A stretch of 36,586 nt of DNA from IMG/VR virus record IMGVR_UViG_3300042090_000130, positions 1 through 36,586 of that record; one strand, given 5' to 3'. The notes beneath the pieces were generated by a model. The model was not told the origin of the DNA, did no database searches, and saw only the letters and a list, made by a program, of their open reading frames with translations. Each line of letters starts with the position of its first letter. Within the stretch, counting starts at the first letter, position 1. This stretch comes from a virus. The translations under genes were made by a program, and so were the position numbers. Of the stretch, positions 1 to 36,586 are shown piece by piece.

Positions 1-2
1 CC

Positions 3-200
3 GCCGCCGCACGCGCCGCCTACGCCGCCTCACGCGGCGCCACCGCCTACGCCGCCAACGTCGCACGCGCCGCCGCCGCCTACGCCGCCGACGCCGCCAC
101 CGCCTACGCCGCCATCGCCGATAAAATACTTGGCGACTTTGCTGAGCGTGTCGTGCAAATCCTAATTGAGATGAAGACGCCAGGTAGTTTATGGCTGTAA
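3..200 (+). CDS. Ala-rich repeat protein, C-terminal part (5' end outside window)
   Basis: The open frame enters the window already coding, so the start lies upstream. The first ~40 visible codons are GCC-rich and encode an imperfect Ala-Ala-x repeat with Tyr/Arg/Asp spacers (AARAAYAA, AATAYAA). A non-repetitive end follows, DKILGDFAERVVQILIEM, finishing at a TAA. Such Ala-rich repeats followed by an FAExVVxIL-type tail recur in phage proteins of unknown function and probably form long helices. The stop overlaps the ATG of the next gene (ATGGCTGTAA), which implies translational coupling and supports this frame. The strong GC bias of the repeat contrasts with the AT-richer genes after it. The function is unknown. 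Confidence 0.7.
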   Translation, partial: AAARAAYAASRGATAYAANVARAAAAYAADAATAYAAIADKILGDFAERVVQILIEMKTPGSLWL

Positions 201-5152: not shown

Positions 5153-5432
5153 GTATTTTCCACTGACTGGCCTGGGCTATACAGAGACCAAAGACTTTGA
5201 GTTGGTCATACAGGAAGTCTGTAACGATATGCTGCCGTCCGGATTGGATACAATGTACGCACTGCGTAATAAGATAACGGGCATTATAGAGGCGAGGGGT
5301 ATGTCCCTCGCCCTCTCCGTGGTCGTGCTACAGAATCAGCAGCAGATGTTCGACAAGGTGCTGAGTGGGGAGTTGAATGGGTATGCTTCTCCGCAGGGTA
5401 AGACGGCGCTGGGCGATATAGGAGATATCTAG
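5142..5432 (+). CDS. Small early protein, unknown function
   Basis: A 96-residue protein starting MTNKYFPLTGLGYTETKDFE, with start at 5142 inside the last codons of the SSB-like gene. The longer upstream in-frame extension is only the acidic tail read in another frame and is discarded. The protein is mostly helical (VIQEVCNDMLPSGLDTMYAL, a Leu/Val helix and a Gln-rich helix near LQNQQQMFDKVL). Its TAG (5430-5432) overlaps the GTG of the next gene. No motif is recognised. Confidence 0.6.
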   Translation: MTNKYFPLTGLGYTETKDFELVIQEVCNDMLPSGLDTMYALRNKITGIIEARGMSLALSVVVLQNQQQMFDKVLSGELNGYASPQGKTALGDIGDI

Positions 5433-5815
5433 TGCGCTTACTAGTATGTGGTGGTCGGGATTACTCGGATTATACCAAAGTCTACACGGAGATTGCTCGC
5501 GCATTGGATTGGGTGTCCAGCGGAGATGAACCCAACGACAGCTGGCTGCCTCCAAAGGACACGGTTATTATTTCAGGTGGTGCTACAGGAGCAGACAGTA
5601 TTGCTGTAGATTGGGCAGTGATTCACTGGGTTCCACGTGAAGTGTACAAAGCTGACTGGGAGAGGCACGGCAAGGCAGCAGGGCCTATCCGTAACAAGCG
5701 CATGCTTGTGGAAGGAAAACCAGATATGGTGCTAGCGTTTCCGGGGGGACCTGGCACGGCGAATATGGTAGATCAGGCTCTAAAAGCAGGAGTACCAGTA
5801 CGATGCATCTCATAA
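5432..5815 (+). CDS. DUF2493 / YspA-like SLOG-superfamily protein
   Basis: A 127-residue Rossmann-like protein. The pattern is MRLLVCGGRDYSD at the N-terminus, then VIISGGATGADSIA (residues ~47-60), VYKADWERHGKAAGPIRNKRM (~74-94) and MVLAFPGGPGTANMV (~100-114). This matches the DUF2493/YspA (cpYpsA-related) family of the SLOG superfamily, whose members bind nucleotides or nucleotide-derived ligands; catalytic activity is generally unproven. It starts with GTG overlapping the previous stop (TAGTG). It sits between SSB-like and exonuclease genes, a common place for such proteins in phages. A role in nucleotide sensing or salvage, or against nucleotide-signalling defences, is inference. Confidence 0.85.
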   Translation: MRLLVCGGRDYSDYTKVYTEIARALDWVSSGDEPNDSWLPPKDTVIISGGATGADSIAVDWAVIHWVPREVYKADWERHGKAAGPIRNKRMLVEGKPDMVLAFPGGPGTANMVDQALKAGVPVRCIS

Positions 5816-8197: not shown

Positions 8198-8650
8198 ATG
8201 CTTAGCTTTATTCAGCGGCGCAGAGCCGCATTCGAGCAATGGCTTGATGGCAAACGAGAAGCAACTAGGCGGCGCAATCTCAGCGCAGAAGCTGCTGATA
8301 TTGAGGGGCAGATCCGCGCGCAGTTGAATCAGCAGTATCGTCAGCGGGAGGCCGATGCTGAGCGTCGCGGGTTCGATCTAGGTGTGCAGCGCACGCGGGA
8401 CACCTACACAGCGGAGTATGCCAAACTGCGTGCCGAGTTAGCTTTAGCCGCTGAGAAGAACTATACGTGGGTGAATGATCGCGGTATCAAGTCTGGCGAT
8501 ATCGTTCAGGACGCTAACGGAGTCAACTTCGTAGCCTTATCACAGGAACATATTGATGAACTCAAAAAAGGCCAAGGCGCTGCGGCAGGGACTCAAAGAG
8601 TACAGCAAACGCGCAAACCCCGAACGCGCGGCCGAGCTAAAAGGAATTGA
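8198..8650 (+). CDS. Coiled-coil early protein, unknown function
   Basis: A 150-residue protein. The first ~100 residues form a long charged helix (FIQRRRAAFEQWLDGKREATRRR..., IRAQLNQQYRQREADAERR, AKLRAELALAAEKN). A small beta-rich element follows (KSGDIVQDANGVNFVALSQEHI), then a basic tail (RKPRTRGRAKRN). The basic tail suggests nucleic-acid contact. ATG 8198 is preferred because AGGAT lies 7 bases upstream; ATG 8189 and GTG 8192 are alternatives. The gene's 3' end is overlapped by the frames at 8556 and 8656. No family is recognised. Confidence 0.6.
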   Translation: MLSFIQRRRAAFEQWLDGKREATRRRNLSAEAADIEGQIRAQLNQQYRQREADAERRGFDLGVQRTRDTYTAEYAKLRAELALAAEKNYTWVNDRGIKSGDIVQDANGVNFVALSQEHIDELKKGQGAAAGTQRVQQTRKPRTRGRAKRN

Positions 8651-9017
8651 GCACTATGGAATCAACAGCGAAACAGGCGAGCAGTTTCTTGCTAGCGTCA
8701 CAGCAGTACTCTCCCCTACATGTCCACGGGGGCTATACCAGCGGACTAAGCGGCTCATTAAAGCCGCAGTCCACAGAAGCCGACCCCAATGGGCTGACTT
8801 CAAGCTCTCCAGGGGCGAAATTAGACGCCGGAAAGGTGGACATACTCCGCGGAGCATTCCTCTACTTTCCGAAAGCACTGGAGGCAGTGGCACAAGTATC
8901 GGAGATAGGAGCGAAAAAGTACGCTTGGGAGGGGTGGAGAACGGTGCCGGATGGCGTGACGCGCTACGGCGCCGCATTGAGCAGACACTTGATGCACAAG
9001 CCGGGAACGCGGGATAA
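8556..9017 (+). CDS. Small basic phage protein with CPRGLYQRTK motif, overlapping DUF5664
   Basis: ATG 8556 is preceded by AGGA (8544-8547) at 8-base spacing. The first ~75 residues look like a genuine small phage protein: MNSKKAKALRQGLKEYSKRA, then HYGINSETGEQFLASVTAVL, then PTCPRGLYQRTKRLIKAA. To my recollection a P-x-C-x-R-x-x-Y-x-x-x-K end recurs in small basic phage proteins of unknown function. Beyond residue ~75 the frame continues open but runs opposite the strongly conserved DUF5664 frame and has shadow-like composition, so the conserved unit may be only the N-terminal half. Overlap with 8198-8650 and 8656-9117 makes this a three-gene overprint. Confidence 0.45.
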   Translation: MNSKKAKALRQGLKEYSKRANPERAAELKGIEHYGINSETGEQFLASVTAVLSPTCPRGLYQRTKRLIKAAVHRSRPQWADFKLSRGEIRRRKGGHTPRSIPLLSESTGGSGTSIGDRSEKVRLGGVENGAGWRDALRRRIEQTLDAQAGNAG

Positions 9018-9117
9018 TGGTCCTGGCGGTACGGGTTGCCTGCACGCTGCACAGGTAGCCTGGAATGCCCTGGCCATACTTGAATTACTTATTGAGCAAA
9101 ATAACAATGCCGTTTAG
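8656..9117 (+). CDS. DUF5664 dATP/dGTP pyrophosphohydrolase-like protein
   Basis: A 153-residue protein whose C-terminal ~100 residues carry the DUF5664 pattern: GAKLDAGKVDILRG (53-66), FPKALEAVAQVSEIGAKKYAWEGW (71-94), RYGAALSRHLM (103-113) and CLHAAQVAWNALAILELL (128-145). This all-alpha family is annotated as dATP/dGTP diphosphohydrolase-like and includes MazZ-type enzymes that reshape the purine dNTP pool in 2-aminoadenine phages. No PurZ-like gene is visible here, so a general dNTP-pool role is the safer inference. The first ~52 residues are low-complexity Ser/Gly and overlap the 8556 frame. ATG 8656 is used with AAAGGA upstream; a TTG at 8647 is possible. Confidence 0.8.
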   Translation: MESTAKQASSFLLASQQYSPLHVHGGYTSGLSGSLKPQSTEADPNGLTSSSPGAKLDAGKVDILRGAFLYFPKALEAVAQVSEIGAKKYAWEGWRTVPDGVTRYGAALSRHLMHKPGTRDNGPGGTGCLHAAQVAWNALAILELLIEQNNNAV

Positions 9118-33405: not shown

Positions 33406-33498
33406 GGTGGAATCCACCAAAATTTGACCCTTTTTTAGTGGAATCCACCAATCTGTCATTTCCCTAGCTGTTTGGTCGATTTCGCTTTCCGGAATCCG
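33406..33498. promoter_or_regulatory. Phased palindromic operator-like sites (TGGAATCCA family)
   Basis: GGTGGAATCCACC (33406-33418) and GTGGAATCCACC (33438-33449) are perfect palindromes around a central A with centres 31 bp apart, about three helical turns. A related CGGAATCCG (33490-33498) is centred 51 bp further, about five turns. All lie on the same face, upstream of the candidate leftward promoter. This is typical of a dimeric regulator binding cooperatively. Confidence 0.6.
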
Positions 33499-33662
33499 CC
33501 GAACGCTTTCGACGAAGATCGACGCAGATATCAGGATAGGTTAATAGGTCGCAGGAATTTGGTTGCTGCATCACAGCATTCTTACTTTTTTCCCTTTTGG
33601 CGTGGGAGTCCGGCACCCAGCCCAGCGAGGAATTCTTTTACCCGGGTACCCCTAGGTCGCAC

Positions 33663-33962: not shown

Positions 33963-34154
33963 ATGAACAAGAGATTACGCGCAGCTATACTGAGACAGTC
34001 AACGACTGCTGAAACTGAGATAGTAGAAGCATTACGTAAGACTGGTAATAATTGGACACAAGCTGCTGATTTACTTGGAATAACGTTTAGACAGTTCAGG
34101 TATCTAATGAAGCAGCGGGGGCATGCTGTCGATGCTAGATTGTTTCACGGTTAG
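33963..34154 (+). CDS. Fis-type HTH (HTH_8) DNA-binding protein
   Basis: A 63-residue protein starting MNKRLRAAILRQ. The second half is a Fis/NtrC-type helix-turn-helix: EIVEALRKTGNNWTQAADLL followed by GITFRQFRYLMKQRG. HTH_8 domains are the DNA-binding ends of Fis and of sigma-54 enhancer-binding proteins; here it stands alone with no AAA+ or receiver domain. ATG 33963 is used because AGGA (33950-33953) precedes it; the longer frame from 33888 runs across the promoter/operator. It is the first gene of the rightward unit. It probably regulates the divergent control region or its own promoter. Confidence 0.75.
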   Translation: MNKRLRAAILRQSTTAETEIVEALRKTGNNWTQAADLLGITFRQFRYLMKQRGHAVDARLFHG

Positions 34155-34212: not shown

Positions 34213-34371
34213 ATGACGCAATACAAGGTAACATTACAGTTTCTGGATGGGGCACACGTGTCGTACACGATCGCCAGCGAACTTAACCTATCCGACTACA
34301 GCGCGCGGGCTACGCAATACTACGATACGGGTAGACTCTCATACATACTAGTGGAGCAATTAACGTGGTAG
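34213..34371 (+). CDS. Small soluble protein, unknown function
   Basis: A 52-residue ORF beginning MTQYKVTLQFLDGAHVSYTI and ending SYILVEQLTW. AGGAG (34199-34203) lies 9 bases upstream of the ATG. The beginning looks like a beta-hairpin (YKVTLQFLDG, HVSYTIA) and the middle like a helix (SDYSARATQYYDTG). It is the first gene after the sigma-54-like site and immediately precedes small membrane ORFs and the amidoligase. No family is recognised. Codon use resembles that of its neighbours. Confidence 0.6.
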   Translation: MTQYKVTLQFLDGAHVSYTIASELNLSDYSARATQYYDTGRLSYILVEQLTW

Positions 34372-34433
34372 CCTTCGCATTCGTTTGCATCTGGTTAACC
34401 CTATTAATCGCGGGGGATTATTATGTTAATTGA
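34365..34433 (+). CDS. 22-residue hydrophobic peptide ORF (tentative)
   Basis: A GTG-started frame overlapping the end of the previous gene, encoding VVAFAFVCIWLTLLIAGDYY plus VN and TGA. It is one short membrane helix. Its 3' end overlaps the ATG at 34423, and GGAG lies about 10 bases ahead of the GTG. Too short to be certain; it could equally be leader sequence that couples translation to the next gene. Confidence 0.25.
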   Translation: MVAFAFVCIWLTLLIAGDYYVN

Positions 34434-34656
34434 TCTAATCGTCCTGGTAGCCGGCATTTGGATGCTGTTAGTAGCCGTAGGACTGATAAGCTTGATCGTT
34501 CAGGCAGCTAATAAGGCATGCCGTGGCGTAATTGACTATAGGCCGCAAGCGGACGGTGATAGCCTGCTAAAACGTGCTATACTAGACGCCGAGTTACAGG
34601 AAATGCGCAAGCAGCGCATTGTGAATCTGTTTAATCGTTTAACCCATAGGAGCTAA
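34423..34656 (+). CDS. Small single-TM membrane protein
   Basis: A 77-residue protein: an N-terminal membrane span (LIDLIVLVAGIWMLLVAVGL, continuing ISLIVQ), then a basic juxtamembrane stretch and an amphipathic cytoplasmic-type helix (SLLKRAILDAELQEMRKQRI) ending in a basic tail. GGGGGA lies just before the ATG. It sits directly before the amidoligase, so it may anchor or regulate that module at the inner membrane. This is positional inference; no family is recognised. Confidence 0.6.
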   Translation: MLIDLIVLVAGIWMLLVAVGLISLIVQAANKACRGVIDYRPQADGDSLLKRAILDAELQEMRKQRIVNLFNRLTHRS

Positions 34657-34660
34657 TTAT

Positions 34661-35794
34661 ATGACTACGCAAGTAGAATTACCGGACGATGATAGCTTTA
34701 TCTGTCCGCAATGTGCGGAGATATCCGAGGATACTGCCCTACTTGAAGATGGCACTACATGGTGTCAAGGTTGCGCCGAAACCAGCTACGTATATTCTGA
34801 GATACAAGAGTGTTGGATAGAAGCTACCAGGGCATGCTCACTAATCGATTCTGATAGCTATGTGTCGCGGCCCTATCGCGATCGTAACTGCTACCGGAGT
34901 GAGGCGGGCGACTGGTACGAGGATGAACACAACCGCGACGAGGCAAACGACAGCTACTACGCGGACGCAGAAGTAAATGCCGATTACATCTATAGCTATC
35001 ACGCTACTACGCCGTTCGTTGTACATGGCGGATGGCCGACTGCTACGCCTAAGAATGGCTTGTGTTTTGGCGTTGAACTGGAAATGGAAAATGCCGCGTC
35101 AGATAGTCAAAGCGGCGGCGAAGACTTAGCGGCTAGATTGGGCGGTTGCGCCGGTTCCGCTAGCTTCGGGGATGGACGCTATATTCTCATGTCAGATGGC
35201 AGTCTATCGGCCAGCGGTGTTGAGCTAATCACGCTTCCCTATACATTGGAGTTTCATCAAGCTAAGTTCGGCTGGCAGAAGCTGCTAGCCAGCATTAAGA
35301 GCATTGGTAAGTCGGGCGCCGGGACAAGCAATTGCGGGATGCACGTCCATTGCAATCGTAAGGCTATTAGCGCGCTTAACTTAGGTAAGCTGTTGGTATT
35401 CGTTAACAGCAAGGCTAATGAAGAGCTAATGAAGCGAATAGCTCAGCGCGATCCGGAAGAGTGGGCGGCATTCCATCCCAAGACTATTGCGGATGGAAAG
35501 CAGATTAACGGGGACAAGTACGAGGCCGTACACCTCGGCAGGGAGACTATTGAATTCCGCATATTTAGAGGTAACTTGCGTCCAGACCGCGTACTCAAGA
35601 ATATTGAATTCTGCCATGCGGCTATCTTGTACACGCGGCAAGCCAGCATTAAGGCAATTAACACTACTACTGACTTTATCGCGTGGTTAGGCAAGAATCG
35701 TAAGACATACCCTAACCTGGTAGCGTTTCTGGCTGAGGGTAACTTTAGCAAACGCATGTCATCTAAAAACTACCCGCAGCCGGAGGAAATTTAA
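34661..35794 (+). CDS. Amidoligase (glutamine-synthetase-like fold) with N-terminal zinc ribbon
   Basis: A 377-residue protein. Residues 1-40 contain a zinc ribbon (Cys15, 18, 35, 38). A hydrophilic Asp/Tyr-rich region (~45-110) and YSYHATTPF come next, then the catalytic domain: FGVELEME (136-143), LMSDGSLSASGVELITLP (~176-193), NCGMHVHCN (224-232) and GRETIEFRIFRGNLRPDRV (293-311). The order ExE, DGS-GxE, GxHxH, ExR-x-FRG is that of the putative amidoligase family related to glutamine synthetase (PF12224), predicted to form amide/isopeptide bonds using ATP. Its pairing with a downstream glutamine amidotransferase is a known theme for the family. Substrate unknown. Confidence 0.85.
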   Translation: MTTQVELPDDDSFICPQCAEISEDTALLEDGTTWCQGCAETSYVYSEIQECWIEATRACSLIDSDSYVSRPYRDRNCYRSEAGDWYEDEHNRDEANDSYYADAEVNADYIYSYHATTPFVVHGGWPTATPKNGLCFGVELEMENAASDSQSGGEDLAARLGGCAGSASFGDGRYILMSDGSLSASGVELITLPYTLEFHQAKFGWQKLLASIKSIGKSGAGTSNCGMHVHCNRKAISALNLGKLLVFVNSKANEELMKRIAQRDPEEWAAFHPKTIADGKQINGDKYEAVHLGRETIEFRIFRGNLRPDRVLKNIEFCHAAILYTRQASIKAINTTTDFIAWLGKNRKTYPNLVAFLAEGNFSKRMSSKNYPQPEEI

Positions 35795-35795
35795 T

Positions 35796-36586
35796 ATGTG
35801 CCTAATTGCTTATGTAAAACAAGGGCTTGAGATGCCGGAAGCTAATTTCCGCAGTGCAGCTAAGGATAACTCTGACGGTATTGGCTTCATGTCGCAGGAT
35901 GGCGTAGAGAAGTTCCTAGGGCGCAAAATGGTAAAGCGGGCATGGCGCTACGCCAGAGAATTGCATGACGCGGGAAGGGAGTATGCCGTGCATTTCCGCT
36001 TCGCTACGCATGGCATTGTGTCACTGCGTAACTGTCATCCGTTCAAGACGCCAGACGGTAACGCCTATGTCATGCATAACGGCATTCTGAGTCAGTACAC
36101 GCCGACTGATCGCAATGGCAATATGTCAGATACCGCTAACCTGGTAAGCGTAATGGTAGGCGTAGATATTGGTGACCATGAGTATTGGGAACAGATGGAA
36201 AAGCATATCGGCTATGCGAATAAGCTATGCGTTATGTCGCCGGATGGGCAATTCCGCATTGTCAATGACAAGGCTGGCGACTGGATTGATGGCGTATGGT
36301 ATTCGCAGACATATAGCTTACCGGGATACGGGATGCATTGGCGCTACAGTGCGGAATCCGATGATACCGCTACGGCAGTCTATGGCAGTCGCGTATATGA
36401 CGGTGGCTACGGGCATCTGGTAGAAGCAGCCTTGGAGCGCCGCTATGGTGCGGCTAGCACTAGCTGGAAAGAAACCAGCGTAGACCGGGACTATGATCGG
36501 ACGGATATCTACGAGACTGAGGCCGAAGAGCTAGACAAGGCATTAGAAGAGCATCTGTCAGATGACGATGAAGCAGACTGTATTTG
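35796..36586 (+). CDS. Class II (Ntn) glutamine amidotransferase, 3' end outside window
   Basis: At least 263 codons; the frame runs off the window end without a stop. Start ATG 35796 follows GGAGGA at ideal spacing, directly after the amidoligase stop. Met-Cys2 provides the N-terminal nucleophile (MCLIAYVKQG), followed by SDGIGFMSQDG, VHFRFATHGIVSLRNCHPF and YVMHNGILSQY, the usual GATase-II site pattern. After residue ~150 the sequence is Asp/Tyr-rich with an acidic helical tail. Such enzymes hydrolyse glutamine to deliver ammonia to a partner synthase or ligase; here the obvious partner is the amidoligase. The acidic C-terminus is unlike standard GATases. Confidence 0.85.
   Translation, partial: MCLIAYVKQGLEMPEANFRSAAKDNSDGIGFMSQDGVEKFLGRKMVKRAWRYARELHDAGREYAVHFRFATHGIVSLRNCHPFKTPDGNAYVMHNGILSQYTPTDRNGNMSDTANLVSVMVGVDIGDHEYWEQMEKHIGYANKLCVMSPDGQFRIVNDKAGDWIDGVWYSQTYSLPGYGMHWRYSAESDDTATAVYGSRVYDGGYGHLVEAALERRYGAASTSWKETSVDRDYDRTDIYETEAEELDKALEEHLSDDDEADCI

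Follow-up and report, generated by a model that had tools for sequence, protein, structure and literature searches.

Gene content of the locus and layout of the viral genome

The window analyzed here is the whole virus record IMGVR_UViG_3300042090_000130 (36,586 bases), whose ends are linear according to IMG/VR. The genome is podovirus-like in gene layout, with the late genes (capsid, portal, terminase) on the minus strand and the replication genes (helicase, polymerase, exonucleases) on the plus strand. Its last part encodes, on the plus strand, a 377-amino acid glutamine synthetase (GS)-like amidoligase of the Amidoligase_2 family (PF12224; 34661..35794) and a class II (Ntn, Cys2) glutamine amidotransferase (GATase; 35796..36586), the 3' end of which is missing. 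Both genes were found where the initial annotation had placed them: the amidoligase contains the segments FGVELEME, CGMHVHC and EFRIFRG, and the GATase starts after a gap of 1 base with its own GGAGGA ribosome-binding site (35782..35787, plus strand), which lies within the 3'-terminal part of the amidoligase gene and encodes Glu-Glu near the amidoligase C terminus. The GATase reading frame begins with MCLIAY and continues for 263 codons without a stop before the window end, the gene being cut by the end of the contig.

Two small plus-strand ORFs stand ahead of the pair, namely a 77-amino acid membrane protein directly upstream (34423..34656), with one strong hydrophobic stretch (Kyte-Doolittle maximum 2.75), and a 52-amino acid soluble protein without a Pfam or PHROG match (34213..34371). 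The existence of both ORFs agrees with the initial annotation, but their proposed membership in the module does not hold: neither has a homologue in the loci of the relatives, and the small ORFs beside the pair in relatives are hydrophobic in 3/20 cases, which is about the 10% baseline. They were rejected as module parts on these grounds and probably lie outside the module. The membrane association proposed for the pair also fails, because conservation is lacking for the small ORFs upstream, the membrane protein among them. By inspection, no obvious signal peptide or membrane segment was found in the amidoligase or the GATase.

Comparison with two related loci (L002 and L003) indicates that the early region spans the contig ends, in the order helix-turn-helix gene, amidoligase, GATase, a 208-amino acid protein, primase, helicase and polymerase, where 'primase' is a label taken from the MEP401 homologue. 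The Fis-type helix-turn-helix gene that opens this region (33963..34154, plus strand; PF02954, E 2.2e-9) is given as context only; it is 81% identical in L002 and precedes the amidoligase there too. Judging from this gene order, the GATase tail and the primase lie in a piece absent from the contig, whose length between 36586 and 1 is estimated at 2-4 kb from L002 and L003. The contig starts with a CCGCCG-type repeat (window 1-120), one frame of which reads as Ala/Tyr-rich repeats, and this repeat probably made the assembly break here. In L002 and other relatives the pair sits after a divergent intergenic region and ahead of primase, helicase and polymerase, and it is likewise early in MEP401 and MW202733.

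Two other genes of the window encode a protein of the dATP/dGTP diphosphohydrolase N-terminal family (8647-9117; PF18909, E 2.8e-18) and, amid the replication genes, a YspA/SLOG-family protein (5432-5815; PF10686, E 7.3e-16). The Z-genome biology hinted at by the diphosphohydrolase was discarded, no PurZ being present in the contig, and a role in anti-phage defence was set aside after PADLOC gave no match.

Folds, catalytic residues and zinc ribbons

The amidoligase matches PF12224 at E 3.9e-7 (30.6 bits, above the curated cut-off of 22), and the same profile matches 54/56 members of the alignment built from the window protein and 55 relatives. Its AlphaFold2 model (mean pLDDT 90) has a glutamine-synthetase fold, with Z 12.5 over 215 residues against YbdK and Z about 10-12 against many glutamine synthetases. 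The catalytic core of this fold comprises residues 130-364 (35048..35752, plus strand), as given by the VIA-align range against YbdK and the glutamine synthetases. Loss of ATP- or metal-site residues would have spoken against an amidoligase; nine residues (E139, E141, D179, E188, H228, H230, R263, E298 and R300) are invariant in all 56 aligned sequences, and these acids, histidines and arginines we take, from family knowledge, to form the metal/ATP site.

Zinc-ribbon knuckles (C15-x2-C18 and C35-x2-C38; 34703..34774, plus strand) are present at the amidoligase N terminus. Cysteines C15, C18, C35 and C38 are kept in 49, 53, 54 and 54 of the 56 sequences, respectively, and both knuckles are missing in L026 (the same contig as L008) and L087. 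The ribbon had been described as an extra element of this phage; its presence stands, but given this conservation, with C18, C35 and C38 in 53-54 of 56 sequences, the aligned sequences mark it as ancestral to the amidoligase family. Many CxxC knuckles occur in the amidoligases of L030-L032 and L047, the relative in L047 (L047:7479-8726) having an N terminus with about 42 cysteines in CxxC runs.

The window GATase falls narrowly below the Pfam cut-offs (GATase_6, 23.5 bits against 27; GATase_4, 20 against 23), and the GATase_4 profile matches 46/54 members of its family at E 0.01. Nevertheless the Cys nucleophile at position 2 and the R, N-G and D of the glutamine pocket are all present: C2, N25, G28, H66, R68, S111 and D112 are invariant in 54/54 sequences, and N95 and G96 are kept in 53/54. 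The AlphaFold model has an Ntn-hydrolase fold, matching EgtC at Z 13.0 and the glutaminase domain of GlmS at Z 12.7. Its C-terminal part is variable across the family and poorly modelled. A CxxC...CxxC motif ends the GATases of L002, L003 and L004, and by comparison with these the absent C terminus of the window protein may carry one as well. Structure prediction and fold search recovered a GS-type ligase fold and a class II glutaminase fold, and both enzymes look intact and are probably active.

Occurrence of the pair and relation to known systems

Scanning IMG/VR returned 295 stretches that encode amidoligase relatives, of which 79 loci were kept (55 distinct at 90% identity). A GATase adjoins the ligase in 54/54 distinct loci whose contig runs past the ligase; L063 stops directly after it. 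By profile, the GATase was detected in 77/79 loci. L073 has an HNH-like insert after the ligase, then a GATase start and then the contig end. Spacing between the two genes is mostly 0-60 bp, phage contexts are varied, and the gene order is swapped in three distinct loci (L050, L064 and L087/L088). The distance matrices of ligase and GATase correlate with a Mantel r of 0.87 (n = 52); in the 22 genomes that have a terminase-like gene in common, r is 0.90 between ligase and GATase, compared with 0.72 and 0.81 between either of them and that gene. This agreement fits inheritance of the pair as a unit, which does not by itself prove a complex. The pairing is near-obligate and not absolute: Clostridioides difficile phage AR1086-1 has a ligase with no GATase within the 12.6 kb examined, and Bifidobacterium phage BP677P8 has a GATase but, within the part examined, no recognisable ligase, the gene just before the GATase included. 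Residues, folds and co-occurrence together support the earlier proposal that a GS-fold amidoligase and a class II GATase form one functional pair.

A conserved third partner was looked for among the neighbours and rejected. The recurrent ones are a terminase-like family, assigned by eye and not by profile, and a family of 344-446 amino acids that is adjacent or close to the pair in just 14/55 loci, and neither is general. The absence of a conserved third gene suggests that two genes suffice, and a two-gene form that is widespread, almost never broken up and different from the larger cassette described below would offer a clean route to the chemistry with two proteins. A cellular origin was also rejected, since a scan of bacterial genomes gave only four weak matches, each on a piece of Clostridia DNA that was short or lay at a contig end.

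Phage amidoligase-GATase pairs have been reported before. They are known from LUZ24-like phages (PMC3890496); for the pair of MEP401/402, PMC10580990 suggests cell-wall modification or secondary metabolites, citing Iyer 2009 and the Marvin paper; and in RIO-1-like podoviruses a related set was named the peptidoglycan modification cassette (PMC5498523). In the literature found on such pairs a function is only suggested, with no function or substrate demonstrated. The closest counterparts of the window pair are gp105/gp106 of mycobacteriophage Marvin and the pairs of the Methylophilales phages MEP401/402, in which a homologous ligase is followed directly by a homologous short GATase. The N-terminal CxxC knuckles are clear in the Marvin ligase, as in the window ligase; MEP401, unlike the window protein, has a long extra N-terminal region, and the Marvin and MEP401/402 proteins are only about 25% identical to those of the window.

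The cassette of phiEco32-, LUZ24- and RIO-1-like podoviruses shares an early-region PF12224 amidoligase adjoining a class II GATase. However, its amidoligase has no zinc ribbon and begins directly at the core, its GATase is much longer, and the cassette additionally contains a COOH-NH2 ligase, an ATP-grasp protein and a gamma-glutamyl cyclotransferase. A phmmer search with the cassette amidoligase recovers 0/79 loci. Across these 79 loci ATP-grasp was found in 1, cyclotransferase in 4 and COOH-NH2 ligase in 0, the last absence resting on a family search without a positive control and also on phmmer searches that used the proteins of LUZ24 and phiEco32; none of the three was found in the window, which is an incomplete contig. 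As the extra cassette genes are absent, the window pair is not counted as a member of the peptidoglycan modification cassette.

More distantly, YbdK and glutamine synthetase on one side and EgtC and the GlmS glutaminase on the other have the same folds and conserved catalytic residues as the window proteins, but identity is 10-20% and the window enzymes are separate subunits with zinc ribbons. MurT, a Mur ligase, and GatD, of a different amidotransferase class, resemble the window pair in the proposed kind of reaction, as an analogy only. This ligase and glutamine amidotransferase act in peptidoglycan amidation in Staphylococcus aureus (PMC3267633).

The window pair is a further member of a kind already reported (Marvin, MEP401/402, LUZ24, phiEco32). 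What is new here is modest: a two-gene form distinct from the LUZ24/phiEco32 cassette, and a GATase fused to a gamma-glutamylamine cyclotransferase. The fusion joins a GATase of the same family to a PF06094 domain in phages C75C1 and MW202828 (E 2.7e-21 and 7.5e-18; L105:3501-4397 and L108:4001-5218). About 850 bases ahead of the fusion gene, C75C1 also encodes a PF12224 amidoligase, and four small genes separate the two. At the level of sequence the fusion ties the GATase family to gamma-glutamyl chemistry, and it would narrow the likely chemistry toward gamma-glutamyl compounds.

Proposed function and alternative explanations

We lean towards a reading of the pair as one early-made, two-subunit, ATP- and glutamine-dependent enzyme of amidating (or gamma-glutamyl) type. 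The Cys2 GATase would hydrolyse glutamine and pass the ammonia on, presumably from subunit to subunit; the GS-fold amidoligase would convert a carboxylate into an activated acyl phosphate at the expense of ATP and then build a new amide on it; and the zinc ribbon may help to hold the substrate or the other subunit in place. As target, a small host molecule that is peptide-like or contains a gamma-glutamyl group would be likeliest. Cytoplasmic peptidoglycan precursors are the leading candidate, and the purpose would most likely be to exclude competing phages or to alter host metabolism. Modification of peptidoglycan has been proposed for the related cassette (PMC5498523). The idea is thus borrowed from another cassette, of which the window and almost all relatives lack the remaining genes (COOH-NH2 ligase, ATP-grasp and cyclotransferase).

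The main rival to an amide-forming pair, which we hold to be doubtful, is a pair that first forms gamma-glutamyl linkages and afterwards trims them, with the Cys2 enzyme cleaving the product and not supplying ammonia. The model for this would be ergothioneine synthesis, in which EgtA is a gamma-glutamylcysteine ligase and EgtC an Ntn hydrolase. In structure, the GATase is matched best by EgtC and the ligase by YbdK, itself a relative of gamma-glutamyl ligases, and the GATase-cyclotransferase fusion in C75C1 and MW202828 points the same way. However, the Z values of EgtC and GlmS are tied, and the two have glutamyl-binding residues in common, so that sequence cannot tell them apart; the tight gene coupling is equally expected from an ammonia-channelling complex.

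The alternatives to a small-molecule target concern macromolecules and DNA. The zinc ribbons of the ligase N terminus, and those of the GATase C terminus in several relatives, could recognise a macromolecule of host or phage (RNA polymerase, a ribosomal or a virion protein) that the enzyme modifies. We consider this quite unlikely, although the ribbon is kept in nearly all 56 ligases, knuckles are multiplied in L030-L032 and L047, and the GATases of L002, L003 and L004 carry CxxC pairs at their C termini. The enzyme persists in L026 and L087 without either ligase knuckle, the pair has no linked precursor or target gene, and the ribbons may serve only to join the subunits. Distinctly improbable, in our judgement, is the more specific form of this idea, by which the zinc ribbons on both subunits of a widespread two-gene module, apart from the LUZ24/phiEco32 cassette, recognise one specific host macromolecule for a glutamine-dependent amidating complex; if true, phages would gain a new post-translational modification. 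Modification of phage DNA bases with amino acids or amides is very improbable. A part in DNA hypermodification has been discussed for amidoligases and GATases of phages, and the contig encodes the dATP/dGTP diphosphohydrolase-like protein, but the early ORFs scanned include no base hydroxylase, base kinase or thymidylate-synthase-like gene, the contig has no PurZ, and no base-modification gene was recognised among the recurrent neighbours of the pair.

The divergent intergenic region of the window (33406-33500) contains short repeats. The motif GGAATCCACC occurs there exactly at 33409 and 33440, the copy at 33409 being part of the near-palindrome GGTGGAATCCACC, with a one-mismatch copy at 33491, and the window as a whole has 6 matches to it against 1.6 expected. 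These repeats are candidate operators.
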